A model generated the notes under the pieces. The model was not told where the DNA came from. It searched no databases and was given only the letters and a program-made list of their open reading frames with translations. Source: Archivesica marissinica (lineage: Eukaryota > Mollusca > Bivalvia > Venerida > Vesicomyidae). Taken from it: a DNA stretch of 64,000 nt. Made by a program: the position numbers and the translations under genes. Shown one piece after another: positions 15,901 to 54,100 of this stretch (positions within the stretch are counted from its first letter, which is position 1; every line of letters begins with the position of its first letter). Where the stretch lies: contig CM026390.1 of assembly GCA_014843695.1 (NCBI GenBank), positions 10,425,890 to 10,489,889 on the forward strand, written 5' to 3'.

Positions 15901-18900
15901 GGCTTTCGTGGTGTTTCTGGAGTTGTGTCTAAATTGAAGGCTTTCATGGTGTTTCTGGAGTTGTGTCTAAATTGAAGGCTTTCATGGTGTTTCTGGAGTT
16001 GTGTCTAAATTGAAGGCTTTCATGATGTTTCTGGAGTTGTGTCTAAATTGAAGGCTTTCATGATGTTTCTGGAGTTGTGTCTAAATTGAAGGCTTTCATG
16101 GTGTTTCTGGAGTTGTGTCTAAATTGAAGGCTTTCATGGTGTTTCTGGAGTTGTGTCTAAATTGAAGGCTTTCATGGTGTTTCTGGAGTTGTGTCTAAAT
16201 TGAAGGTGATCCTCAAAGCTTGTATGTGGAAGTCGTGATAGCGCAGTGGAAGCACGTTCACTTCATGTGCGAAAGGCCCCGAGTTCGAGTCCCACTGTAG
16301 CCGTTACGATTGTGCCCTTAGGCAAGGCATTTAAATTCCACATTGCCTCTTCTCTCTCCCTCATGGCGATGGATCCATCAGGAATGAGGTCTCGAGAGTG
16401 ATTAATATAAGTTGAAAGAACTTGTTTCACAATCAAGCTAAAATAAATTTGTATAAACTAAAGCGACGTCACATAATTTTGTTTTATTAATGGGAATCTA
16501 ATGCAGATCTATTACTATTGAGCTAAAGTCTGTCGACAGGATTACACTGACTGGCCAAGCTTGACCATAAGCATTCTTGCTTTGACCGTTCACAGATTTC
16601 TCTGGGGTTACAGACTGACCAAGCTTGACCATAAGCATTCTTGCTTCGACCTTTCACAGATTTCTCTGGGGTTACTGTTTTAAGCATTTTACTGAGACAT
16701 TTGTAACAATCGCATAGTAGGAAAGAGGTAACCATACAAGCAGGTTGCTTTCTCTTCAATCCTACATGAAGTCGTGATAGCGTAGTGGATGCGCGTTAGC
16801 TTCAGGTGCGAAAGGTCCGGAGTTTGAGCCCCACTGAAGCCGTTACGATTATGCCCTTAGGCAAGACATTTAATATCCACGTTGCCTCTTCACTCTCCCT
16901 CGTGGCGATGGATTCCATCAGGAATGAGGTATCGAGAGGGCTAAATAAAATAAAAATTAAATCTTACATGTATCATATTTTTTATAGTTGACTAATTCCT
17001 ATCTAGTATCTCTCATAACATAGACACATTTTAATCAACAAGTATATCTACCATCAGTTTAACACTCTTCATATATTTATGATATTTTGTTTTTCATTGC
17101 ATGCAAATTGTATATGTATTATTATGATGATGAGCTATGTAATGCTGAAGTCTAATAAACAATATAATAATATATGTTTATTCAAAGAAATAACTATTGT
17201 TTAACCCTTTCCTTCATAGAGATTTAGGTTAATATACTATTATATCTCCATACAAACGGCAGCCATTTAGCTATCAAGCAGTGGATAAATAGTCACCATA
17301 TCTATTCCACCTCCATAGATATTACTACAACTACATGAGATTCTGGCCTTAATTATGAACATTGGTTTGGCTACTACATTGTCAAAGTATGTCGTATTGG
17401 TAATGGCGGCAAGAGGTGCTTCTATGAGGGAAAGTGTTTAACTAATTGCATAGTACATGTAATTTTAATTTATGGCATTTCAGGAGAGTAAGCCTTGCTG
17501 AGGCATTTCTGACAGCTGATATAGTGCTGATCACACTGCAGAATATCTCCGAAGGCCTCGTCGTTTATCCTAAGGTATAATTGAGAAGCACAACCTTGAA
17601 CAGGTTTATTCACTGTCGCCCAATGGTTAATCAGGACAACGCCTCCAGAAGTATGTTATTGTGGAAGCCGTGATAGAGCAGTGTTAGCGCGTGCGCGAAA
17701 GGTCAGGAGTTTGCGCCCAGCTGTAGCTGTTACATTTGTGCCCTTAGGCAAGGCATATAAATTCCACATTGGCTCTTCTCTCTCCCTCGTGGCGATGAAT
17801 TCCATCAGGAATGAGGCCTCGAGAGTGATTAATATACGTTATTGGACCTTGTTTCGCAATCAAGCTAAGATAAATTTGTATATTAGTCGTATTGGATAAT
17901 GGAAGATACAGAAGACGCTTCCAATTCCAGAAGCATCTCTGGTCCTTTTACATGCCCAGTGTAAAGCACCGATACACAAAACCCCTGTTTAAAGTCCCAA
18001 TGAAAGACTTCATATTATTAGGGTCAGAGGGGATCGAACCTGCAATCCCTGGATTCACAGTATGTGTTAACCACGTCTATCGCGTTGATATGTATTCAAT
18101 ACCGGTATGTGCATTATTAGGTAGGATTTATACTTGAATAATTGCCTGAACAAATTATTTATGTCCAACGATAAACAGATCAGGGAATAATAAACAACAA
18201 ACCTGGTAAGGACTTTGAAACTAGAACATTGCAAATTGAAAAAGCCTACTGTACTATGCTCTAAACCTGTTCTAGTTTATAACCTCATTTGTCCGCTACG
18301 TCTTGGTGAATTTTAAAGCCATAGCTCATTGGTATGATGTTGCACACAATATTTATCAATATATAGGTCATTGAGAGAAGATTGAAGTTAGAATTGCCGT
18401 TCATGGCCTCCGAGAATATAATCATGGCCATGGTTAAAGCTGGAGCTGATCGACAAGTAAGTACAGTACAAGCTGATAGACAGGTAAGTATAGTATGAGC
18501 TGATAGACAGGTAAATATAGTACAAGCTGATAGACAGGTAAGTATAGTATGAGCTGATAGACAGGTAAATATAGTTAGAACCAATATAGTGGTAAATACC
18601 ATAGGAGGTATGCTGGTAAGTATAGTACAAGCTGATAGACAGGTAAGTATAGTACAAGCTGATAGACAGGTAAGTATAGTACAAGCTGATAGACAGGTAA
18701 GTACAGTACAAGCTGATAGACAGGTAAGTACAGTACAAGCTGATAGACAGGTAAGTACAGTACAAGCTGATAGACAGGTAAGTACAGTACAAGCTGATAG
18801 ACAGGTAAGTACAGTACAAGCTGATAGACAGGTAAGTACAGTACAAGCTGATAGACAGGTAAGTACAGTACAAGCTGATAGACAGGTAAATAAAGTTAGA

Positions 18901-21900
18901 ACCAATATAGTGGTAGAGGTTATTACTTAGCTAGTTTCATATCAGCATAGGTATCGACCTGTGGTAACTTGGTATCAGCCTGAGACCGAATTTGAACATT
19001 TAACAGTTGAAATCATGCTCTCCATTATCCATTTATAAGCTATGCACAATTACTGAATTAGATAAACGATTGAAATATTACCAAGAAACTACAAACATCT
19101 GTTAGCTGTCACTGAGACGCTACAGGAAGTAAACAAACCGAGTGCGCATGTGTTATTTTCTCAGGAGCTAGTTATGTTCCTTTTTTTCTGCAAATAACGG
19201 CAAAAAAATAGGCTAAAATTCATATCTAAGTGATAACGGTAAATATCAATTTTAGGGTGATAGGAATATCGATAAGGCATAGTCTACAGCTGCAAATGAG
19301 TAACACTCATTTCCTTGTGCATTAAAAATTGTCTATAATCCTGTTATACCTATATCAATAAATGCACTAATCTATACTTGTATGCAACAAAGATGGTTGA
19401 ATCTGCACCATCTACCGGGTATATGTTAAAAGACATGCTTTATATAGCGTAGCATTATGAAGCAATTTCCAACGATAGTTGGTCTATAGAGGGTAGCGGG
19501 ATGGAGCAACGGCATTGGAGTTTCTGTTCATTACTTCTATTTTCGTCTCTTTGTGGTAGTTTTAATTTATGCAGCCTCGTTCTGAGATCACCACAACTTG
19601 GAAGAATTTGTTCAGAGAAGTTTTATTATTTTAATTTTACCGCATTCCTCCCCGTCGTCCTCCTTTTTGGCACATTCTTTGCTTGTACTTGTGTCCAACT
19701 TTATGTCACACTTTAACCCTTTCAACAAAATCACATTTGGACAAGTTCATTTATCAAAATGGGTAATTATGTCTAAAAATAGTCATATCACTGGCAAAAA
19801 GTGCAGATCCTGATGAGACGGCTCGTGACGAGCCGGCTCATCTGGATCTACACTTTTTGTAAGCCTATTTAGAGGTCTGTGGTGTGGAAAGGGTTAATTG
19901 GTTGAATTATATAATTACTTGTTTAATATAATACTTTTCATCTTGCTTCTCACGCCAGACATGTTCATGGGTGTTTAGTGACTTTGTATAAATTGTTAAG
20001 ATGTGATGAGGGATGGGCGGCCCCTCATATCGTATTACCGTAGGAAGCAAATAAATAGTGTCACATATCGTATTACTTATTAGGCAAATAAATGGTGTTC
20101 TTTGTCACATGATAATGAACAGAAACCTTTTTCAGGTATGCCATGAACAGATACGCGTGTTATCTCAGGAAGCTGGCAACAATGTGAAACAGGAAGGTGG
20201 GGATAATGACCTAGTGGAGAGGATCAGACAATCTCCATACTTCGCACCCATACATAGCAAACTGAATACGATACTGGATCCTTCAACATTTACTGGTCGT
20301 GCACCAGAACAGGTCTGTTTGGGGGGATGATAGGCAGTTTAAAAATAGATTCAAAACAAACTACTACGGCAAAGCACCTTTTAAAAAAAGGAAAAAGTTA
20401 AAAAGAAAACCAGTACAAATCGGATAATATACAAAAAGATATGTCCATTTTATATGTTGTTGGTGGAATAAAACTTCAACCTGCCAACTTAGATTGACAA
20501 CATCACCATATCAAATGATTATTTAGATTTTATGCTTTAACCCTTTCCTTCATAGAGATTTAGGTTAATATACTATTATATCTCATACAAAGGACACCCA
20601 TTTAGCTATCATGCAGTGTATAAGTAGTCACCATATCTATCCCACCTCCATAGATATTACTGGGAATACATGAGATTCTGACCTTTATTATAAACATTGG
20701 TTTGGCTACTACATTGTCAATGTATGTCGTATTGGTAATGTCGTCAAGAGGTGCTTCTATGAGGGAAAGGGTTAAATGATATTTACAATAGCCTATCTGT
20801 ACTAAGAGAAAGAGATGTATTCATAATACTTAATCTATCAAACATCATACATGAGAAGTACCCCCTTACAGGAGGGAATGTCCCCTTTCAAGGTCCAGCT
20901 ATGTTTTCACCAAATGACAACAATTCCCTACACATCCTTATTTGTCTTATACTTTTAATTCAAATTTCTCCAAACAATTACTCCTAGCCCTTGAAATGGT
21001 GAACATGTGTAAAATACTGGTAACATTTCACCAAATGACAACAATTCTACACATCCTTATTTGTTTTATATAAATGATTCCCCTAACAATTAATCCTAGC
21101 CCTTGAAATGGTGAACATGTGTAAAATACTGGTCAAATCTATTCCAAGTTGAATATTCATTTGAGCCGTAATAATGAGACCAGGCCAGACTTCTACCGGT
21201 ATATGATATTGTGCTTTCGACATGGTGCTTTCTACAGACGGATCTGTAGTCCAGTGGTTAACACGCAATCCAGGGATCGCAGGTTCGATCCCCCGTCTGA
21301 CCCTAATAAAATTAACAGTCTTTCAGTTGGGACTTTAAACCGAGGTCTCGTGTCGGTGCTTTACACCGTGCACGTAAAAGAACCAGAGGAGACTCTGGAA
21401 TAAGTCTCTGTCTGTATCATTGCACTATCCTCCAAAATCTAAAATGACTAATCTCGCCGATAAATAAACGTAAAACACACACATGGTGCTTTCATCAGTA
21501 AATCCTGACTTTTATTATAGCAGCCTGTGTGGCGTAGTGGTTAAGGTGTCCACCTACGGAGCAGGAGGTCGAAGGATCGAACCTCGCCAGGAGTACTTTC
21601 TGATATGGCCGGTTGGTGAGCCACCAGCTAGTTAAATAATGGTTACCGATTGCCCATCAGCCTGACGGCTGGCCTTCACCAATAGGAGGTTCATCATAGT
21701 CAGAAATAGCTTCAATATTATAGGGTGACACTACACATACATTATAGCCCATAATTTAAAAAAAAGGTGTTTGTTTCCCGACCGACCCATTAAAATAGGC
21801 CGGACTCAGTTTTATCGACCATTTTCTAAATAAGAAAATTTGTACAGGAATTTACTAAGCATGGTTCACATTTGAGGATACTACCAGTGTGATCTTCGTT

Positions 21901-26816: not shown

Positions 26817-27152
26817 TCAACTCACTTTTATTTTAGATCTAATAAAGTGATGTGGAAAGACAACTTCCAAACAATTATTCAGTAATCCGCGCGAAAATGG
26901 TCGGTATACAGATGTGACATTATAACAGTATATCTTAGACTGGTCAGTGTCATTGCTAGCTAAACGTCCCTGGCAATAAGCACATTCCTCGGAGTGTTTC
27001 GTCTGTAGTTCCTGCAGTTTGTAGCGCTCGTTGGTCGTCTGGTTTGACCAGATGAGATATAAATGCTGGATAAGGAACACGCCTACTAGTATTGTCAGTA
27101 CCACTACGGCGATGACCAGGAACACGAGACGAGGAAGCTCCATAAACAAATG
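26817..27152 (-). CDS. ZDHHC4: ZDHHC4 terminal coding exon
   Basis: Acceptor tataatttcag. Encodes [35 protein letters not shown] and [14 protein letters not shown], then a Cys-containing tail ending RSKIKVS and TGA at 26819-26817. It contains the last membrane helix and the TTxE motif. The [14 protein letters not shown] tail resembles the SHGLRSNLQEIFLP end of ZDHHC4. Confidence 0.94.
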   Translation of the reverse strand, partial: HLFMELPRLVFLVIAVVVLTILVGVFLIQHLYLIWSNQTTNERYKLQELQTKHSEECAYCQGRLASNDTDQSKIYCYNVTSVYRPFSRGLLNNCLEVVFPHHFIRSKIKVS

Positions 27153-30100
27153 CTGAAATTATATATATGTAGATGTAGTGCCACGTGAATTTGAAGTTTC
27201 ATTAATTTTAGAACTATATAATACAAGGCCACCGCCCCAAGCGTGAATGACTGTATAAGTGGTGGTTCACGAAATATATTTTGACGCATCAAATATTTCT
27301 GAAAAATACACATTAAGTTCACTCTTGGGGCAGGGAACAGCCCGTAGAAACAGTATGCAACTTTCATGGTAGAGATCATGACACACATTCTTTAATTCAA
27401 AATGCTACCGTGCTCATTTTCAGAAATGCTTTTCATTGGAAAATAAAAAGCAATAACAACGAACAGCCCCTCTAAGAATGTGTAGTAGATCATTCAACTG
27501 GCACAAATATAATGTTATCTTGGCATATATAAGTGATGTATTATTCTGTTAGAATAGTAGTATTTCACAGCCCATTTCCTCATAATTGCCTCTCCCATAT
27601 ACCAGTATTTAAGCTGATAAATGTTGTTGTTTTGTTTGTTCGGGTTTACTCCTCCATCAGCACCATTTTGGGCTATGGTGGGTAGTTTACCTAATCACAC
27701 ATTTTGGGCTATGGTGGGTAGTTTACCTAATCACACATTTTGGGCTATGGTGGGTAGTTTACCTAATCACACATTTTGGGCTATGGTGGGTAGTTTACCT
27801 AATCACACATTTTGGGCTATGGTGGGTAGTTTACCTAATCACACATTTTGGGCTATGGTGGGTAGTTTACCTAATCACACATTTTGGGCTATGGTGGGTA
27901 GTTTACCTAATCACACATTTTGGGCTATGGTGGGTAGTTTACCTAATCACACATTTCCTAGGCAAGCTCCAGCAGTTAACCAGTACTTGGTGCATAAGAA
28001 TTGCCAACTTTTTCAAATAAATAGACAGGGGCAAAAAGTCAGCGATCTTAGCCACTCGACTACGGAGGTCAGCGATCTTAGCCACTCGATACGGACGCGG
28101 ACGATAAATGACAGCGACCGTTCTCTGTATGTCTTTTCTACTATACCTGGAAGGCGACTAACCTGGAATGCGACTTCTACTATACCTGGAAGACTACCTC
28201 TACTATACCTGGAAGGCGACCTCTACTATACCTGGAAGGCAACCTCTACTATACCTGGAAGGCGACTTCTACTATACCTGGAAGGCGACCGATTCTACTA
28301 TACCTGGATGCGACCGATTCTACTATACCTGGAATGCGACCGATTCTACTATACCTGGAATGCGACTTCTACTATACTGGAAGGCGACCGATTCTACTAT
28401 CCTGGAAGGCGACCGATTCTACTATACCTGGAAGGCGACCGATTCTACTATACCTGGAAGGCGACCTCTACTATACCTGGAAGGCGACTTCTACTATACC
28501 TGGAAGGCGACCAATTCTACTATACCTGGAAGGCGACTTCTACTATACCTGGAAGGCGACCTCTACTATACCTGGAAGGCGACCTCTACTATACCTGGAA
28601 GGCGACCGATTCTACTATACCTGGAAGGCGACTTCTACTATACCTGGAAGGCGTCGTCTACTATACCTGGAAGGCGACTATACCTGGAAGGCGACTTCTA
28701 CTATACCTGGAAGACGACTATACCTGGAAGGCGACTTCTACTATACCTGGAAGGCGACTATACCTGGAAGGCGACCGAATCTACTATACCTGGAAGGCGA
28801 CTGATTCTACTATACCTGGAAGGCGACCGATTCTACTATACCTGGAAGGCGACCGATTCTACTATACCTGGAAGGCGACCGATTCTACTATACCTGGAAG
28901 GCGACCGAATCTACTATACCTGAAAGGTGACCGATTCTGCTATACCTGGAAGGCGACCGATTCTACTATACCTGGAAGGCGACCGATTCTACTATACCTG
29001 GAAGGCGACCGATTCTACTATACCTGGAAGGCGACCTCTACTATACCTGGAAGGCGACCTCTACTATACCTGGAAGGCGACTATACCTGGAAGGCGACTT
29101 CTACTATACCTGGAAGGCGACTATACCTGGAAGGCGACCGATTCTACTATACCTGGAAGGCGACCGATTCTACTATACCTGGAAGGCGACCGATTCTACT
29201 ATACCTGGAAGGCGACCGATTCTACTATACCTGGAAGGCGACCGATTCTACTATACCTGGAAGGCGACTATACCTGGAAGGCGACCGATTCTACTATACC
29301 TGGAAGGCGACTATACCTGGAAGGCGACCGAATCTACTATACCTGAAAGGTGACCGATTCTACTATACCTGGAAGGCGACCGATTCTACTATACCTGGAA
29401 GGCGACCGAATCTACTATACCTGAAAGGTGACCGATTCTACTATACCTGGAAGGCGACCGATTCTACTATACCTGGAAGGCGACCGAATCTACTATACCT
29501 GAAAGGTGACCGATTCTACTATACCTGGAAGGCGACCGAATCTACTATACCTGAAAGGTGACCGATTCTACTATACCTGGAAGGCGACCGAATCTACTAT
29601 ACCTGAAAGGTGACCGATTCTACTATACCTGGAAGGCGACCGATTTACTATACCTGGAAGGCGACCGATTCTACTATACCTGAAGGCGACCGATTCTACT
29701 ATACCTGGAAGGCGACTGATTCTACTATACCTGGAAGGCGACCTCTACTATACCTGGAAGGCGACCGATTCTACTATACCTGGAAGGCGACTTCTACTAT
29801 ACCTGGAAGGCGACCTCTACTATACCTGGAAGGCGACCGATTCTACTATACCTGGAAGGCGACCGATTCTACTATACCTGGAAGGCGACTGATTTTACTA
29901 TACCTGGAAGGCGACTGATTCTACTATACCTGGAAGGCGACCGATATTGTTATCGGTTTAATATTCCCATCATTGCTGTCGTAGTACGATGCCTTGAACA
30001 GTTTCATATCGTCGGCATGGTCCAGGACACACCCGGTGCCCACGTATATACCCTGCAGGAACATGGCAATCAACGAGACCATGAACAAAATAAAATGTCG

Positions 30101-33100
30101 CTGATTCAGTGCTCCTACACAGTTGTTTGTCCAGATACAATGATGGTCAAATTTATGTACACACCTGTTGCATATAGCTGTAATAAACGCAATGACATAT
30201 TATAAACACTGTAATAAACGCAATGACATATTATAAACACTGTAATAAATGCAACGACATATTATAAACGCAACGACATATTATAAACACTGTAATAAAC
30301 GCAACGACCTATTATAAACACTGTAATAAACGCAACAACATATTATAAACACTGTAATAAATGCAACAACATATTATAAACGCAACGACATATTATAAAC
30401 ACTTGTGAATAATATTAAATTACATTCTTTCTGTTTTAGTTTGAAACATCTATGTAGTGAAAGTGATTAGTACTGGTTTGTCGAAGTATACTAACATGTG
30501 TCCATACCACAAGTGGTTACATCTAACTGGTTTGAAATACTGATGTGTGCATATACCACACGTGTATAAATCTAACTGGTTAAAACAATGATATATCTAT
30601 ATACTGACAAGTTTACATCTAACTTGTTTGGTCCTCGGATCGGGATTTATGTAAGATGGATTGGTGGTTGCCAGATCAGACAGGAGTGTTTTCTCTGGTT
30701 TCTTCCCACACGAATGACCACATATACGCTTTCATCCGCATAAAGGAGAAGATTAATATATAAGTTTATTAAAGCTTCGTAATCGATGTAATCAAGTTTA
30801 TAATTTAGCATTTTAAAATATAATTTATAATCACAACTAAAGTTGCTTTTGCAAACAGCATAGAGCCAGATCAGACATGCCGTCTGATCAGGCTCTGTTG
30901 TTTGCTATTCAGATTGTGGCGCTAAAACACTTTACTGAATAGCAAACGGCATATATTGATCACACCCAGCATTACGTTATGTTTGTTCCAATTTATTCAT
31001 CATTTCAATGGTTAACTGGTTTGATGTACCGTACTAGTGTACATATAATGACAAGTGTACATACCACAATGCTTAGATCTGGCTGGTTTGGCTAGCCTGC
31101 ATGTAGAGCATTCCTTCTTGCCCTGATACATGACCCCATCGTGTGGATACACCTGCATATACTCTTTGTGATTATCTTGTGTTATTTCTCCTGGATCACC
31201 TGTAGAAGTGACGTATAGAATGATTAAAACTGACAGTGATTCAGTTACTCGAGTGATGCGTTGAACCAGACCATGATTTATTAGTCATGCCACCTGGCTA
31301 TTTAACCCTTTGCCTGCTGAGTAAATAAAATCACATTTGCAAACAACATAGATCCAGATCAGCCGCGGCGTAACGCCGCGTCTGATCAGGATCCATGTTG
31401 TTTGCTATTCAGCCAAGTGTTTTAGCTCCACTATCCAAATAGCAAACAGCATAGAGCCTGATCAGACGGCACGTTCTGTGCCGTCTGATCTGGCTCTATG
31501 CTGTTTGCAAAGGTGATTTTATCTGCCGCTAGCGTGCAAAGGGTTAAGATCAATAAAACACCTAATGCCATATTAATTTAAGATCTTAGAGTGGTGGAAC
31601 CTATGCTTGGCGTATTTGTCCATTTACATCCGTATTTATATAGTTCTAGGCTAATTTCGCTGACAGAGCTGAAGCATGGTTCAATAGCATTCCGTTGCGT
31701 GTATCGGTAGCCTGATGCAACTGTCACTTGACTGGTTTGGTTCAGCAGATGGATATAAACAAACAAATCATTGGGAGAATATTTCCACCGAAAATGATAC
31801 GGTGTATGAGCAATTCGGGTAGCTATCCGAATTTATAAAAATCTACACTTAACCCAAAAAATAATTTCTATACCATTTCTGATTAAGACCAATAAGTGTT
31901 TTTATTCAATGATGTACTATATCAAAATAAAATATTCAACAAGTTATGGTGGATAAATAAAAAATAACAAGTATGCCGTGTATAAGTGCCCTGAAGTCTA
32001 GAGTTCCCCATATAAACGGGTGCTGACCCGACACCGTTGCGATAGCGATAGAGTTTTTTTTAAAGTTCTTTTTACGACTTAAGAAAATAATAATATACAG
32101 GTGTCATATAGAATATTGACCCACCAAAATAATGACCCCCCCCCCCATCCTCAAAGCCTACAAAAACAATGTTATCAATATATTTTATTAATAAGCTATA
32201 AAATTAACAATTACCAATAAAATTATATTGAATTTATGTATGAAAAAAGACATACACTCAACTTAATTGGTATTTGAAACCATGCAGCTCACAATAAATA
32301 CCATAAAATAGCACAGTACTAACCATTCTCATCATATTCATGCATGTTCTCTTAAACTTTCCAGAAAATGTGTATAGCTATATAATATGCTGTTAACCAT
32401 TATAATTCTGACGGGTGTTGCTAATTTTGCCACAGGTGTGAATGAAAATCCCCATAATAAAGCAATAAAACCTTATTGTTGGAGCACTGCAATCAACTGT
32501 GACACTGTGTTTTTTACATTTATTTATCGTCGCTACCGGTTGCCCATATGAGCGACGCCTCCTGAAGAGATTAGTTACTTTATATTTTGGAGGATAGTGC
32601 ATGATACAGACAGAGACCCATTCCAGAATCTCCTCTGGTTCTTTTACGTGCACGATGTAAAGCACCGACACGAGACCTCGGTTTAACATCCCATCTGAAA
32701 GACTGTTAATTGTATGGTCAGACGGGGGATCGAACCTGCGATCCCTGGATTACCAGTCCAGCGTGTTACCACTGGACTACATATCCGTCTGTAAAAACTG
32801 TGACACTTCCTGTGTTACATGTTTTATATCATTCATAATACATAATATTTTATTATTGTATGAGCAAGGACAGATAACATTATGTTTTATAATGTGTGCC
32901 TCCCAGTGCAAGAAACTGTTAGTGTAGATTATCTGATTGAGGGTAGGTCACTTTCCATGCCATAGAATAACGACCCCCCCTATGTTTACACAGTGAGAGT
33001 GGTCACTTTTCCATGCCGTAGAATAATGAACCCCCTGTATGTAAACTATATGAGTGAGGGGGAGGATCACTTGTCCATGCCATAGAATAATGACCCCCTG

Positions 33101-36100
33101 TATAGTAACTATATGAGTGAAGGGGTCACTTTTCCATGCCATAGCATAATGACCCCCCCTGTATATTAACTATAGGAGTGCAGGGGGTCACTTTTCCATG
33201 CCATAGAATAATGGCCCCCCTGTATATTAACTATATGAGTGAGGTGGGTCACTTTTCCATGCCATAGAATAATGACCCCCCTGTATATTAACTATATGAG
33301 TGAGGGGGTCACTTTTCCATGCCATAGAATAATGAACCCCCTGTATGTAAACTATATGAGTGAAGGGGGTCACTTTTCCATGTCATAGAATAATGACCCC
33401 TCAGTATGTAAACTATACGAGTGAGGGGGGTCGCTTTTACATGCCATATAATATTGACCCCCTGGTATATTAACTATATGAGTGAGGTGGGTCACTTTTC
33501 CATACCATAGAATAATGACCCCACAGTATGTAAACTATACGAGTGAGGGGGGGGGTCACTTCCATGCCATAGAATAATGATCCCCCTGTATATTAACTAT
33601 ATGAGTGAGGGGGTCACTTTTCCATACCATAGAATAATGACCCCCCTGTATGTAAACTATACCAGTGAGGGGGTCACTTTTCCATACCATAGAATAATCA
33701 CCCCGCTATGTGTAGATTATATGAGTGGGAGGGGGTCACTATCCATACCACAGAATAATCATCCCATATGTGTAGATTATATGAGTGGGAGGGTGTCACT
33801 ATCCATATCACAGAATAATCACCCCCATATGTGTAGATTATATGAGTGGGAGGGTGTCACTATCCATATCACAGAATAATCGCCCTCATATGTGTAGATT
33901 ATATGAGTAGGAGGGGGTCACTATCCATATCACAGAATAATCATCCCCATATGTGTAGATTATGAGTGGGAGGAGGTCACTATCCATATCATAATCACCC
34001 CCATATGTGTAGATTATATGAGTGGGAGGGGGTCACTATCCATATCACAGAATAATCACCCCATATGTGTAGATTATACAAGTGGGAGGGTGTCACTATC
34101 CATATCACAGAATAATCATCCCCATATGTGTAGATTATATGAGTGGGAGGGGGTCACTATCCATATCACAGAATACTCACCCCATATGTGTAGATTATAC
34201 AAGTGGGAGGGTGTCACTATCCATATCACAGAATAATCATCCCCATATGTGTAGATTATATGAGTGGGAGGGGGTCACTATCCATATCACAGAATACTCA
34301 CCCCATATGTGTAGATTATACAAGTGGGAGGGTGTCACTATCCATATCACAGAATAATCATCCCCATATGTGTAGATTATATGAGTGGGAGGGGGTCACT
34401 ATCCATATCACAGAATACTCACCCCATATGTGTAGATTATACAAGTGGGAGGGTGTCACTATCCATATCACAGAATAATCATCCCCATATGTGTAGATTA
34501 TATGAGTGGGAGGGGGTCACTATCCATATCACAGAATACTCACCCCATATGTGTAGATTATACAAGTGGGAGGGTGTCACTATCCATATCACAGAATAAT
34601 CATCCCCATATGTGTAGATTATATGAGTGGGAGGGGGTCACTATCCATATCATAGGATAATCATCCCCATATGAGTGGGAGGGGGTCACTATCTATATCA
34701 TAGAATAATTTTGCAATAAGCTGGTTTAATCAAACACTTGTCCATACATTGGTAAAATATACCAATGATGAGCAAAATAATTGGGACGACTTCATCCATC
34801 CCGCTTTACTGGCTTATCGATATGGCATGGAAAAGTGACCCCCTCACTCATATAGTTAATATACAGGGGGGTCATTATTCTATGGCATGGAAAAGTGACC
34901 CCCTTCACTCATATAGTTAATATACAGGGGGGTCATTATTCTATGGCATGGAAAAGTGACCCCCTCACTCATATAGTTAATATACAGGGGTGTCATTATT
35001 CTATGGCATGGAAAAGTGACCCCCCTCACTCATATAGTTAATATACAGGGGGGTCATTATTCTATGGCATGGAAAAGTGACCCCCCTCACTCATATAGTT
35101 AATATACAGGGGGGTCATTATTCTATGGCATGGAAAAGTGACCCACCTCACTCGTACTGTGTAAACATAGGGGGGGGGTCATTATTTATGGCATGGAAAA
35201 GTGACCCATTCACTCATGTAGGGGGGGGTCATTATTTTATGGCATAGAAAAGTGCCCCCCCCCTCAGTTTTACAGTTTAAACATAGGGGGGTCATTATTC
35301 TATGGCATGGAAAAGTGACCTACCCTCAATCAGATAATTTACATTATGGGGGTCACATTCTACATGTATGCATGGAACAGTGACCTACCCTCAATCAGAT
35401 AATTTACATTATGGGGGTCACATTCTACATGTATGCATGGNNNNNNNNNNNNNNNNNNNNNNNNNNNNNNNNNNNNNNNNNNNNNNNNNNNNNNNNNNNN
35501 NNNNNNNNNNNNNNNNNNNNNNNNNNNNNNNNNNNNNNNNNNNNNNNNNNNNNNNNNNNNNNNNNNNNNNNNNNNNNNNNNNNNNNNNNNNNNNNNNNNN
35601 NNNNNNNNNNNNNNNNNNNNNNNNNNNNNNNNNNNNNNNNNNNNNNNNNNNNNNNNNNNNNNNNNNNNNNNNNNNNNNNNNNNNNNNNNNNNNNNNNNNN
35701 NNNNNNNNNNNNNNNNNNNNNNNNNNNNNNNNNNNNNNNNNNNNNNNNNNNNNNNNNNNNNNNNNNNNNNNNNNNNNNNNNNNNNNNNNNNNNNNNNNNN
35801 NNNNNNNNNNNNNNNNNNNNNNNNNNNNNNNNNNNNNNNNNNNNNNNNNNNNNNNNNNNNNNNNNNNNNNNNNNNNNNNNNNNNNNNNNNNNNNNNNNNN
35901 NNNNNNNNNNNNNNNNNNNNNNNNNNNNNNNNNNNNNNNNNNNNNNNNNNNNNNNNNNNNNNNNNNNNNNNNNNNNNNNNNNNNNNNNNNNNNNNNNNNN
36001 NNNNNNNNNNNNNNNNNNNNNNNNNNNNNNNNNNNNNNNNNNNNNNNNNNNNNNNNNNNNNNNNNNNNNNNNNNNNNNNNNNNNNNNNNNNNNNNNNNNN

Positions 36101-39100
36101 NNNNNNNNNNNNNNNNNNNNNNNNNNNNNNNNNNNNNNNNNNNNNNNNNNNNNNNNNNNNNNNNNNNNNNNNNNNNNNNNNNNNNNNNNNNNNNNNNNNN
36201 NNNNNNNNNNNNNNNNNNNNNNNNNNNNNNNNNNNNNNNNNNNNNNNNNNNNNNNNNNNNNNNNNNNNNNNNNNNNNNNNNNNNNNNNNNNNNNNNNNNN
36301 NNNNNNNNNNNNNNNNNNNNNNNNNNNNNNNNNNNNNNNNNNNNNNNNNNNNNNNNNNNNNNNNNNNNNNNNNNNNNNNNNNNNNNNNNNNNNNNNNNNN
36401 NNNNNNNNNNNNNNNNNNNNNNNNNNNNNNNNNNNNNNNNCATAGAATAATGATCCCCCTATATGTAAACTATATGAGTGAGGGGGTCACTTTTCCATAC
36501 CATAGAATAATGACCCCCTATGTGTAAACTATACGAGTGAGGAGGGTCACTATCCATATCATAGAATAATCACCCCCATATGTGTAGATTATATGAGTGG
36601 GAGGGGGTCACTATCCATATCACAGAATAATCATCCCATATGTGTAGATTATATGAGTGGGAGGGTGTCACTATCCATATCACAGAATAATCATCCCCAT
36701 ATGTGTAGATTATATGAGTGGGAGGGTGTCACTATCCATATCACAGAATAATCATCCCCATATGTGTAGATTATATGAGTGGGACAGTGTCACTATCCAT
36801 ATCACAGAATAATCACCCCGCTATGTGTAGATTATATGAGTGGGAGGGTGTCACTATCCATATAACAGAATAATCATCCCCATATGTGTAGATTATATGA
36901 GTGGGAGGGTGTCACTATCCATATAACAGAATAATCACCCCCATATGTGTAGATTATATGAGTGGGAGGGTGTCACTATCCATATCACAGAATAATCATC
37001 CCCATATGTGTAGATTATATGAGTGGGAGGGTGTCACTATCCATATCACAGAATAATCATCCCATATGTGTAGATTATATGAGTGGGAGGGTGTCACTAT
37101 CCATATCACAGAATAATCATCCCCATATGTGTAGATTATATGAGTGGGAGGGGGTCACTATCCATATCACAGAATACTCACCCCATATGTGTAGATTATA
37201 CAAGTGGGAGGGTGTCACTATCCATATCACAGAATAATCATCCCCATATGTGTAGATTATATGAGTGGGAGGGGGTCACTATCCATATCACAGAAAAATT
37301 GCCCTCATATGTGTAGATTATATGAGTGAGAGGGGGTCACTATCCATATCACAGAATAATCATCCCCATATGTGTAGATTATATGAGTGGGAGGGGGTCA
37401 CTATCCATATCACAATAATCACCCCATATGTGTAGATTATATGAGTGGGAGGGTGTCACTATCCATATCACAGAATAATCGCCCCCTTATGTGTAGATTA
37501 TATGAGTGGGAGGGGTCACTATCCATATCATAGGATAATCATCCCCATATGAGTGGGAGGGGGTCACTATCTATATCATAGAATAATTTTGCAATAAGCT
37601 GGTTTAATCAAACACGTGTTCATACATTGGTAAAATATACCAATGATGAGCAAAATAATTGGGACGACTTCATCCATCCCGCTTTACTGGCTTATCGATA
37701 TGGCATGGAAAAGTGACCCCCTCACTCATATAGTTAATATACAGGGGTGTCATTATTCTATGGCATGGAAAAGTGACCCCCTTCACTCATATAGTTAATA
37801 TACAGGGGTGTCATTATCTATGGCATGGAAAAGTGACCCCCTCACTCATATAGTTAATATACAGGGGTGTCATTATTCTATGGCATGGAAAAGTGACCCC
37901 CCTCACTCATATAGTTAATATACAGGGGGGTCATAATTCTATGGCATGGAAAATTGACCCCCTTCACTCATATAGTTAATATACAGGGAGTCATTATTCT
38001 ATGGCATGGAAAAGTGACCTGCCGTCACTCGTACTGTGTAAACATAGGGGGGGGGGTCATTATTTATGGCATGGAAAAGTGACCCATTCACTCATGTAGG
38101 GGGGGGTCATTATTTTATGGCATAGAAAAGTGCCCCCCCCCCTCAGTTTTACAGTTTAAACATAGGGGGGTCATTATTCTATGGCATGGAAAAGTGACCT
38201 ACCCTCAATCAGATAATTATGGGGGTCACATTCTACATGTATGCATGGAACAGTGACCTACCCTCAATCAGATAATGTACATTATGGGGGTCACATTCTA
38301 CATGTATGCATGGGGTGCATGGGGGTCACATTCTGCATGGGGTGCATGGGGGTCACATTTTTACATGTATGCATGGGGTGCATGGGGGTCACATTCTACA
38401 TGTAATGCATGGGGGTCACATTATGCATGGGGTGCATGGGGGTCACATTCTACATGTATGCATGGGGGTCACATTCTACATGGGGTGCATGGGGGTCACA
38501 TTCTACATGTATGCATGGGGGTCACATTCTACATGTATGCATGGGGTCACATTCTACATGTATGCATGGGGGTCACATTCTACATGTATACATGGGGTGC
38601 ATGGGGGTCACATTCTACATGTATACATGGGGGTCACATTCTACATGTATGCATGGGGGTCACAATTCTACATGTATGCATGGGGTCACATTCTACATGT
38701 ATGCATGGGGTTCACATTCTACATGTATGCATGGGTTCACATTCTACATGTATGCATGGGGGTCACATTCTACATGTATGCATGGGGGTCACATTCTACA
38801 TGTATGCATGGGGGTCACATTCTACATGTATGCATGGGGTGACATTCTACATGTATGCATGGGGGTCACATTCTACATGTATGCATGCGGGGTCACATTC
38901 TACATGTATGCATGGGGGTCACATTCTACATGTATGCATGGGGGGTCACATTCTACATGTATGCATAGGGTCACATTCTACATGTATGCATGGGGTTCAC
39001 ATTCTACATGTATGCATGGGGTTCACATTCTACATGTATGCATGGGGGTCACATTCTACATGTATGCATGGGGGTCACATTCTACATGTATGCATGGGGG

Positions 39101-42100: not shown

Positions 42101-45100
42101 GCACGCAGCGTCACGCTGCGGCTGATCTGGATCTATGTTGTTTGCAAAAGCCTTTAAATATATCCAGAATGAAATGGGTTAATATAAGTTGTAAGAACTT
42201 GTATCACAATCTAGCTAAAATAAATTTGTATAAACTAGTAATATATTTCGTTAAATGTACCAGTATAAGAAACCAAAGTACACACACCTATCTAGCAAAC
42301 ATCCTTACATGTCCAAGCATAATCCCACAATAATATTTGCCTCATTTTAAATTATACAAAATTTACCTGCCTCCTGCCAATGGATGGGCGTGGCACACAG
42401 ATCGATAACATTCTTACCTGTCCAAGCCTTGTGCCAGAAGAAGTAGTTGGTAAACACGGCAACAAAGGGCCAGAATGTGTGATTGTAGTTTGGGTAGTGA
42501 GAATACAATATCGGGATCATATCCACCAACCATACCAGGTGTGCCAGTATACACAACACAAAGTATATCAGCTGGAATACACAGTTTCTGAAAAAACACA
42601 AGAAATCACATGACTGGTAAGACTGTGTGTGTTTTATGTTTATATAGCGTCGCTACATGTTGCCCATATGAGCGACACCTCCTGAAGAGATTAGTAATTT
42701 TAGAGGATAGTGCAATGATACAGACGGAGACCCATTCCAGAGTCTCCTCTGGTTGTTTTACGTGCACCGTTTTAAAGCACCGACACTATACCTTGGTTTA
42801 AAGTCCCAATGAAAGACTTGTTAATTTTATTAGGTTAAGACGGGGAATCGAACCTGGGATCCCTGGATTACCAGTCCAGCGTGTTACCACTGGACTACAG
42901 ATCCATCTGTCTGGTAAAACTGTAAATATACCAATTCTTTACTTCTAGCGTCACTCGCGATAATAATGCTTTCAATGTTCATTCGGTGAAATATACCGAC
43001 GGACAAAAGTTTGCATGAGTTTTTTTTAATTAAAGTCGATAACAAGCAGTACGACATTATATATTATGAAATCTAATTTGATTTTGACCAACTTTTCAGA
43101 GAATGTGCATGATATATTGACAATTTAGATTACATAATATTATCGATCGAGACCTGGAAATTTTATGCTATACTGGAAAACAAGACATTGAAAAGCAATA
43201 GTACTATTACTAAGAATTGACATTAACCCGTTACTGCTCATAAATGCCATATAACACCTTTTTCAGGAGAGAGATCTACATAAGTATTTTATACTTCTCA
43301 ATCCTGCTGACACACTATATATTATAAATGACAATGTATGTATATTGAAATAAAATAACATCTTTTTCCGCTTCCCACATATAGCTGCTTGTTCCATGCC
43401 GTTATCTATTCCAACATACCTATTTACATTGCTATTGCTGTTTGTGTCCATTTTCGATTGAATTTCCTCACTACTGAAACAGCTGAAATATGCTCTCGAA
43501 GCTACGGGCATGCATATTCACAGTATTGGGTAGCTTGATATTAAGGCGTGTCTTACAGGTTTACGCTGTTCAATGAATTGTCTAATTACCCGGTCCTGTA
43601 CACGGTAAGTGACAAATCTGGCCTAAATACAAAGTGTAATTCGTTTTCTTTGTGTCATTGAAAAATATAATTAATGTACCGTAAATATAAGTAATGTCAA
43701 TCACTCAGACTATTCACCAACTACTTGCTGTCAATCACTCAGACTATTCTCCCACTATTTGCTGTCAATCACTCTATTCTCCCAGTATATGCTGTCAATC
43801 ACTCAGACTATTTTCCCACTATTTGCTGTCAATCACTCAGACTATTCTCCCACTATATGCTGTCAATCACTCAGACTATTTTCCCACTATTTGCTGTCAA
43901 TCACTCAGACTATTCTCCCACTATATGCTGTCAATTACTCAGACTATTCTCCCACTATTTGCTGTCAATCACTCAGACTATTCTCCCACTATTTGCTGTC
44001 AATCACTCAGACTATTCTCCCACTATATGCTGTCAATCACTCAGACTATTCTCCCACTATTTGCTGTCAATCACTCAGACTATTCTCCCACTACTTGCTG
44101 TCAATCACTCAGACTATGCTCACACTATTTGCTGTCAACCACTCAGACTATTCTCCCACTATATGCTGTCAATCACTCAGACTATTCTCCCACTATTTGC
44201 TGTCAATCACTCAGACTATTCTCCCACTATATGCTGTCAATCACTCAGACTATTCTCCCACTATTTGCTGTCAATCACTCAGACTATTCTCCCACTACTT
44301 GCTGTCAATCACTCAGACTATGCTCACACTATTTGCTGTCAACCACTCAGACTATTCTCCCACTATATGCTGTCAATCACTCAGACTATTCTCCCACTAT
44401 TTGCTGTCAATCACTCAGACTATTCTCCCACTATATGCTGTCAATCACTCAGACTATTCTCCCACTATTTGCTGTCAATCACTCAGACTATTCTCCCACT
44501 ATATGCTGTCAATCACTCAGACTATTCTCCCACTATTGCTGTCAATCACTCAGATTCTCCCACTATTTGCTGTCAATCACTCAGACTATTTGCCCACTAT
44601 ATACTGTCAATCACTCAGACTATTCTCCCACTATATGCTGTCAATCACACAGACTATTCTCCACTATTGCTGTCAATCACTCAGACTATTCTCCCACTAT
44701 TGCTGTCAATCACTCAGACTATTTCCCACTATATGCTGTCAATCACTCAGACTATTCTCCCACTATTTGCTGTCAATCACTCAGACTATTCTCCCACTAT
44801 ATGCTGTCAATCACTCAGACTATTCTCCCACTATATGCTGTCAATCACTCAGACTATTCTCCCACTATTTGCTGTCAATCACTCAGACTATTCTCCCACT
44901 ATTTGCTGTCAATCACTCAGACTATTTGCCCACTATATGCTGTCAATCACTCAGACTATTCTCCCACTATTTGCTGTCAATCACTCAGACTATTCTCCCA
45001 CTATTTGCTGTCAATCACTCAGACTATTCTCCCACTATTTGCTGTCAATCACTCAGACTATTCTCCCAGTATATGCTGTCAATCACTCAGACTATTCTCC

Positions 45101-51100: not shown

Positions 51101-54100
51101 GCTGTTTGAAGTTCTAAATCTATACATTGAGTAGTTTAACTCTTTCCCTCATATAGGCACCTCTTAGACACCATTACCAATACGACATATGTAGTAGCTA
51201 AACCAATGTTCATAATTAAGGCCATAATCTCATGTAGTCCCCGTAATATCTAAGACGGTGGTATATATATGACGACTACTTATCCACTGCATAATAGCTA
51301 AATGGCTGTCGTTTGTATGGAGATATAATAATATATTAACCTAAATCTCTATGAAGGAATGGGTAAAGAGATATAGCTAGCGATGACAGCGAGCACAATA
51401 GGCCTTCTTATTATTTGAAAAGTTTAGTTTAAACAATATTTTTTTCATGAATAGTACATAGCACAGGAATAGTTGCAACCGCATAGTTAGGATAGGGGAA
51501 AACGTTACATAATAACTTATTCGAAACCATTTCCTTATATACAATTACATACACACATAGTATGTTATGACAGGTTACAGTACAAGTAGTATCTTTAGTA
51601 GGAACTATTTTATAATGTTAGAAAGCGAGCTTAAGCAAAAGACGGAATTAAAACATGCAAGAAAAACGTTCGGAAATGTATGCTTTCAGTTGGAATGTTT
51701 CGTTTTAATATAAAAGGAAGAGAGACACAAAGAAACTGGGAAAAAAAAACCTGTGATTTTCGAAAAGTTTAAAGTGCACTGATGAGTTCATTTACATGTT
51801 GGTGTTGCAAGAGCGGGTGATATTATGATTACCGTCTTATACATTGTATTTTCATTTTTACCCCCAAATTTGCCCCCAAGTGAATTGATTAATTGTGAAA
51901 TTACTATTTGTAAATGACCTCACTTTAAGGATATTTATAATAACAATGTAACTGGCAGTTCCTTCACTAATGTCCATCACTAATGTCCACTAGGACAAAT
52001 TTGGCATTGAATTTCAAGAAAACAAGAGCATAGAGGAACTACGGTAACACTCTTCATCAGCTTCATTTGAATCAAAATAACTCCGGGAGAGAGACTTTCT
52101 CCCCATAGTCTCCCATGGCTCAAGTCCTAGGAATGGCAAGATCACAACAGCTGGGGTAGCTGACCACAAATAGCCAGTAGATTTCTTAAAGGAAAAACGC
52201 CAACAATGGTAACATTGCTATTAATATCATCATATTCAACATGTCTGGCTGTAAAAAACATGTTTATAAAAACCCTTTTGAGGAGTTTATAGCGATTAAT
52301 ATGTTATGTTATATTTCGGGTTTTACGCCTGCATCAGCACCATTTTGGGCTATATCGCCGGCGGGCAGTTTACTTAACAACACCTTTCCTGGGCAGGCTC
52401 CAGCGGTTAACCAGTACTTGGGTGCACCAACCTCCGTAAGAAACTGCCAACTTTTTCATATAAATGAGACACGGTCTGAGCGGGGCTCGAACCCGTGAAC
52501 ATCAGTGATGATAGGTTACAGTGGTATACAAGTCAGCGACCTTAACCACTTATAGCGATTAAACGTCCACATATTGCGCAATAACTAGATCATGATCATA
52601 GTCATTTTAAAGCAGCATTACATCGTATGAAATAAAAGATATTTGAAAAATTCAATTTTTACGTATGGGTAGCAATGCTGCTACACATTCTAACATTATA
52701 ATGTGTATGCTTATGTGTTTTTTGCGATAAAACAAACTCGAAACCAAAAGTAGGACTTTCCGAGTCGATCAGTAACAAACTTGTTTACAACCGGAACGCA
52801 TCGTCTGCACTTGCTTACATTCGGAATGCATCGTCCCCATTTGTCCCACGTTGTCTTTTTTAATTAAATTACTTGATATGTTGATTCATACCTCTGTTAG
52901 CTAAGTCTTTTAGGGACATGTCTACATCCCAGTGAGGGGTTTAACATTAGAGGAAGATAGATAGTCTTTTATGTTCAAAATATATACGTTGTTTTCTACA
53001 TCCTCTGTTGTTTCACGCATGCGCACTGTGCGTGTTTACATTTCGTTGATAAACTGTGTTGATAAACAAATTCGCGTATACGACGGTTTAAATTTATTGG
53101 AATTTTATCGTTTCTGAGTGACTATTTCGATTTTTGTAAACACACACACATTAGTATTTATATTTTATTTATTGCGATGTAATGCTGCTTTAAGAATAAT
53201 TCACTCGGATTACTTTTGCCTTTATCACTTTTGCATGATGCATGTGATGTCACAACCGCACTTCCGACAGTTTTTATCGGAATAAATATTAACAGCCGGC
53301 AACCGCAATAGCTCAAATCATGGCATGCAAATGAACTACAATTAAAATAATATGCATAATTAATGCCATTTTAACCCTTTCCACACCACAGACCTCTAAA
53401 TAGGCTTACAAAAAGTGTAGATCCAGATGAGCCGGCTCATGACGAGCCGTCTCATCAGGATCTGCACTTTTTGCAGGTAATATTACTGTTTTTAGACAAA
53501 ATTACCCATTTTAATAAAATGAATTGGTCCAAATTTAATTTTATTATTAATTTATTGGTCTAAGAATGTCATGGACCAGTCCATGTCAGTTACTTGGTGT
53601 TGAATGGGTTAAAGCAATTTCACTGAATCTGTCAGAGAATGGAATCATAATATGGAAACACTTGTTATGATGTCACACAGGTCAGGTAACAGAAATGACG
53701 GCGGCATATATCGCTGCAGTCTGACTAATTTAGTAATTTTAAATTGCTGTACAAGATTTGTTTTTTTTGGTTTAAAAGTATTATGATTATGAAAGCATTG
53801 CTGAAACATGCTTAATCGATTGCAGGCTATGAAAACGCTAAACTTTATTTTGAAATGTGTAAAATCACCTGTGCGACATGAATATTTATAATAAATTACC
53901 GTTTAAACAGTAGATAGTTGCATATCTTGATAACAGTGTTTTGTAAAATGCTGGGTATGACTCTCGCAACTGACTGAAAATAGAACATCCAAAATATATA
54001 ATTACAATCAAACCTGTGTTAGTGATTCACCTCCATTAAGCAACCAACCTGTATTAAGCAGCCAGTTTCCAGATTCCCATTTGGTTGTTTTATTATATAT

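Follow-up and report, generated by a model that had tools for sequence, protein, structure and literature searches.

Amphioxus 'mirage' minisatellites are described in Adh3, the globin genes BflGb6 and BflGb9, troponin C and PGBD5, and are reported not to disturb splicing (PMC3087553, PMC3902484). As these accounts present them, mirages are tandem repeats that lie across an exon–intron boundary, with AG/GT in many units (here and below, a slash within a motif marks the splice junction). They are homogenised inside and diverge at their edges, and both 5′ and 3′ boundaries can be affected (PMC3087553, PMC3902484); the clam donor arrays analyzed here resemble them in spanning a boundary and in keeping AG/GT in many units, and the ZDHHC4 donor array also in its homogenised interior and divergent edge. 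The Adh3 mirage has units of 10–72 bp, and BflGb6 haplotypes carry 6 and 3 units of 150–160 bp, in contrast to the 75 units of the ZDHHC4 array described below (PMC3087553). The host is a bivalve here, whereas the described mirages are from amphioxus.

Human segmental duplications contain internal tandem repeats that form minisatellites at exon–intron boundaries, with an average unit of ∼30 bp, as here. For the human boundary repeats, ∼4 copies are described, and transcripts attest to altered splicing and to new introns (PMC2812944); the clam arrays are described here at the level of genomic DNA. In the Rogers model of intron gain, exemplified by potato RdRp, ATP2A1 and 24-bp repeats of fission yeast, a short AG/GT-bearing segment is tandemly copied, as in the ZDHHC4 array, but the new intron arises inside or beside an exon, whereas the ZDHHC4 array sits within an existing intron (PMC4974935). 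Two further reports, PMC5896119 and PMC12783039 (intronic minisatellites of earthworm metallothionein genes), were judged from what they present to be off the point. Among the matches listed from the open-licence PMC literature, no title addressed junction-spanning arrays in bivalves.

Results

The host gene and its exon 5

The window is the whole 64,000-base stretch of DNA that was analyzed. Six exons of the host gene were placed by tblastn on the minus strand, from 56.85 to 26.8 kb (exon 2 starts at 53973), and seven exons of ADSL on the plus strand, from 9.07 to 23.26 kb. Splice dinucleotides fitted 21 of the 23 boundaries of the two genes as entered, the other two being coordinate slips. 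The product of the minus-strand gene contains the Pfam DHHC domain PF01529 (E 8.7e-27). The closest protein is a ZDHHC4-like of Mercenaria mercenaria (64% identity over 99%), followed by proteins of Ruditapes, Mactra, Mya and Dreissena, and the top five of 95 protein matches are bivalve ZDHHC4 or ZDHHC4-like. Judged by these matches, the host gene is the ZDHHC4 palmitoyltransferase, and the window comes from a bivalve, probably a heterodont. The end of exon 5 encodes ISVAFQ/HLF, and the pattern (S or Y)(V or I)AFQ/HLF is kept in all five closest bivalve relatives; a wider junction peptide pattern fits 13 of the 36 proteins examined. The features discussed below are collected in Table 1.

Table 1. 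Junction arrays and neighboring features of ADSL and ZDHHC4 in the window
Feature	Position	Strand	Basis or detail
ADSL exon ending ...AGADRQ, donor CAA/GTAAGT	18367..18456	+	tblastn, splice site
Donor-junction minisatellite of ADSL, 27-bp unit, 16.9 copies	18444..18896	+	
Coding part of the last ZDHHC4 exon, including the stop (HLFMELPRL... to ...SKIKVS)	26817..27152	-	tblastn, splice sites
ZDHHC4 intron 5, 2777 bp, with the donor array and a second array of 36-bp units	27153..29929	-	
Donor-junction minisatellite of ZDHHC4	28141..29945	-	75 units; consensus TAGAATCGGTCGCCTTCCAG/GTATAG
ZDHHC4 exon 5, 248 bp, carries DHHC, ends ITISVAFQ	29930..30177	-	tblastn, splice dinucleotides, Pfam DHHC
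Array on the acceptor side of ZDHHC4 exon 5, units of 31 and 19 bp, six TTATTACAG sites	30178..30412	-	
Possible single degraded duplicate of the ZDHHC4 exon 3/intron 3 junction	42283..42339	-	109 bp downstream of donor at 42418

A donor-junction array of 75 units

The original prediction, made from the letters of this stretch, placed ∼70 tandem copies of the ZDHHC4 exon 5 donor junction at 28135..29960. The array is present on the minus strand, and gene, exon and junction unit were all correctly named. The unit joins the end of exon 5 to the start of intron 5, and the array runs from the exon into the intron: unit 1 consists of the final 16 bases of exon 5 plus gtatag, i.e., ATCGGTCGCCTTCCAG/gtatag. 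TRF reports a period of 26 with 45.9 copies in the main row; the count of 75 units is anchor-based. As in a mirage, this is a minisatellite-like tandem array with the exon–intron boundary within the unit and AG/GT in many repeats.

Counting the exonic unit, lengths are 26 bp (n = 41), 23 bp (n = 20), 17 bp (n = 8), 25 bp (n = 5) and 22 bp (n = 1). The 26- and 17-bp classes were thus foreseen, but the predicted 22-bp class should be 23 bp. The claim that lengths vary only in the spacer holds for the deletions of 3 or 9 bp, all 28 of which fall there, but not for one-base deletions, which hit the core in units 11, 64, 65 and 74 and the core edge in unit 68. The 9-mer CAGGTATAG (CAG/GTATAG) occurs in 72 of the 75 units (shuffles: 0.008). 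There are 62 copies of the 13-mer core CTTCCAGGTATAG in the array and none outside it on either strand of the 64-kb window. A core kept in nearly every unit, as predicted, is borne out for CAGGT (73 places; 72 of the 74 non-exonic units), but a core substitution yields CTTTCAG in six units.

Variants along the array are arranged in blocks. A linked variant pair recurs in the neighboring units 14/15, 16/17, 18/19, 21/22, 24/25 and 42/43, and of the 18 listed variants 7 are private to the last 12 units, at the far edge. Recurring linked variants together with private edge variants are as expected from unequal exchange with edge decay. Since the peptide encoded at the exon copy is kept in the closest relatives, the exon copy is the older one and the array derives from it.

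Core and spacer substitutions, and the decoy donors

The predicted preservation of the core was attributed either to recent homogenisation or to selection on the splice core, with a comparison of substitution density as the check. Scored against the 26-bp consensus (74 units), the 13-bp core has 3 distinct substitutions and the spacer has 10 (binomial p 0.047); when small indels are counted as well, the figures become 7 and 14 (p 0.078). A copy-level Fisher test gives p 0.003, but shared copies enter it as if they were independent. As the core had been chosen with the array in view, we asked how frequently one half of the unit would be this cold if substitutions were scattered at random. This coldest-half test, applied to 10 of the 17 arrays of the window, gave p 0.142 for the ZDHHC4 donor array (12 distinct substitutions in the alignment) and no p below 0.05 in the nine others. 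A 34-bp array at 43.7–46.1 kb that does not sit at a junction shows the same degree of unevenness (p 0.083). In the ADSL donor array the core is not cold (p 0.488), and four of its copies carry +5 G>A. Uniform divergence along the unit is neither cleanly observed nor excluded. These tests reveal no special protection of the splice core, and between the two predicted alternatives the data favor recent homogenisation, which is enough without selection.

By U1 pairing, the ZDHHC4 exon 5 donor ranks third in strength among the eleven donors of ZDHHC4 and ADSL (−7.2; range −4.8 to −11.0), and 71 decoys share its 9-mer (72 sites with the real donor). The remaining 988 bases of intron 5 contain no donor as good. 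As had been predicted, a distal donor would lead to an immediate in-frame TAG: the retained array sequence begins GTA TAG, i.e., Val-stop.

These numbers bear on a reading in which the decoy donors are functional and kept by selection on the splice core, so that ZDHHC4 is tuned by unproductive splicing and more copies mean less productive mRNA. The 71 shared 9-mers set in an intron with no other donor as good, the immediate stop after distal use and the nominally significant core deficit (p 0.047) are what it would lead one to expect, but the deficit fades once the choice of the core is allowed for, a non-junction array is as uneven, the ADSL array is without a cold core, and core-breaking variants occur in units 11, 64, 65 and 74. 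We consider this reading quite improbable. Concealment of the ZDHHC4 decoys by RNA structure was rejected, since in predicted folding the real donor is less open than 53 of the 71 decoys.

Intron 5 also contains a perfect 36-bp array (27664–27956; 8.1 copies, 100% matches), whose minus-strand unit carries the donor-like TTAG/GTAAAC; TAG/GTAAAC is slightly weaker (−6.7) than the ZDHHC4 donor. A 646-aa stop-to-stop frame on the plus strand (27621–29561) spans the 36-bp and 26-bp arrays and is most likely a repeat artefact.

The same structure in ADSL

The same junction-array structure arises independently in ADSL. There, too, the unit joins exon end to intron start; it is in frame with the exon, reads VSTVQADRQ, and contains 13 exon bases, two of them changed. 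Both differences between exon copy and array unit are synonymous (CGA versus AGA, and CAA versus CAG). The decoys comprise 11 CAG/GTAAGT and 3 CAG/GTAAAT. Owing to the CAA-to-CAG difference, the real donor is weaker than the CAG/GTAAGT decoys: with the 9-base U1 end, CAA/GTAAGT pairs at −5.1 kcal/mol, as compared with −11.6 for the eleven decoys. Two early units carry TGA, so only the first decoy yields a stop-free insert, of 9 residues. A relatives search was run with a short joined query, full-length ADSL proteins lying outside the length limits. Among the 120 relatives listed of 4630, 57 fit the junction pattern; none of these 57 has an insert of more than one residue, and VSTV is found in none of the 120.

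Predicted folding makes 12 of the 14 ADSL decoys (11/11 GTAAGT, 1/3 GTAAAT) less open than the real donor (0.003–0.027 vs. 0.060), which lends weak support to the idea that RNA structure may hide them. The flank past the array end (GTTAGAACCAATATAGTGGTA, 18895–18915) recurs within the array at 18574–18594; by its sequence, this recurrence suggests an exchange that included the array edge.

Other boundaries and arrays

Exon 5 of ZDHHC4 is bordered by an array on its acceptor side as well. The sixth TTATTACAG site is the exon 5 acceptor itself, and the array stops exactly at the splice AG; its unit carries the acceptor and no clear exon sequence. Of the five upstream sites, four would shift the reading frame and one (174 nt) would not, frame alone being considered.

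All 23 boundaries were tested for junction duplicates (200 shuffles each). Leaving the three arrays aside, one boundary, the donor of ZDHHC4 exon 3, stands out. Among the remaining boundaries, P was 0.035 for the ADSL acceptor at 18367 and 0.065 for the donor of ZDHHC4 exon 1. In these tests the ZDHHC4 exon 2 acceptor, a boundary hundreds of bases from an array, was placed 12 bases off; in the array-edge comparison below it was 14 bases off and the exon 1 donor one base off. The exon 3 candidate matches at 17 of 20 bases and scores 24, compared with a best of 14 in 300 shuffles. The same score is equalled by 1.6% of 1854 overlapping array-free controls, some of them at the same place, and because of this background the segment is only suggestive of a single junction duplicate. 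The acceptor-side array, the ADSL donor array and this possible duplicate were absent from the original prediction.

Minisatellites abound in the window, where 19478 of the 64000 bases (30%) belong to 17 array loci with at least three copies. Two pairs of related 61-bp arrays (32930–38219) flank a 1000-N gap at 35441–36440, as a block duplication or an assembly effect. An array edge is found no more than 20 bp from three of the 23 splice boundaries, compared with an average of 0.39 when the 17 arrays are placed at random (P 0.0046, 5000 trials). If arrays grow until an exon stops them, a 30% cover would make 3/23 unremarkable, and only the two units containing exon sequence would then count; 0.15 to 0.39 such seeds are expected. 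This one window makes it likely, without proving it, that duplication is biased towards junctions.

Discussion

We propose, with a probability of roughly 0.8, that these arrays are 'mirage'-type minisatellites that were recently homogenised and are probably neutral, the exon-proximal donor being the one normally used. A short segment across the exon–intron junction would have been tandemly duplicated, and the duplicate then multiplied and homogenised inside the intron by unequal exchange or slippage, while the exon copy of the unit would stay anchored by coding constraint. The array itself is probably without a function of its own. Against the proposal stand the nominally significant core deficit (p 0.047) and, in ADSL, decoys that look stronger than the real donor. 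Splicing would normally occur at the exon-proximal donor and, on the other side of exon 5, at the exon-proximal acceptor; transcripts from a distal ZDHHC4 donor would read Val-stop and be non-productive.

Length or order of the ZDHHC4 array might instead be distorted by the assembly, which was troubled by repeats elsewhere, as the 1000-N run at 35441–36440 with similar 61-bp arrays on both sides indicates. The ZDHHC4 donor array, however, is without N, its distinct variants lie in ordered blocks and a structure of this kind recurs in the ADSL array, so that such a distortion is very improbable. Least probable of all is a chain of recursive-splicing or intron-gain steps, in which the AG/GT of each unit recreates a donor and allows staged removal or a new intron: each full unit does have a short pyrimidine-rich stretch with adjacent AG and GT, but no branch point was identified, intron 5 already has its own acceptor, ATTTCAG, and units of 17–26 bp are far below the usual intron size. 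Speaking for intron gain, tandem duplication of an AGGT-carrying segment, with CAGGT in the ZDHHC4 array as counted above, is a published route (PMC4974935), and the authors of one amphioxus account propose mirages as an intron source (PMC3087553).

By analogy, the mirage-type reading would extend a known kind of array from amphioxus to a mollusc; what stands out is the copy number, the occurrence of arrays on either side of a single exon, and the presence of two affected genes in one window. At such junction arrays, automatic gene prediction may put exon ends in the wrong place.

In a wider reading, which we regard as unlikely, junction minisatellites would recur throughout the genome in this bivalve lineage and serve as natural arrays of competing splice sites: the unproductive fraction of ZDHHC4 mRNA would be set by array length, and partial use of the stronger, in-frame second donor of ADSL would give an enzyme isoform with the 9-residue insert VSTVQADRQ. 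The two arrays offer natural test pieces for the spliceosome's choice of one donor among many, with 71 identical decoys in ZDHHC4 and stronger decoys in ADSL.
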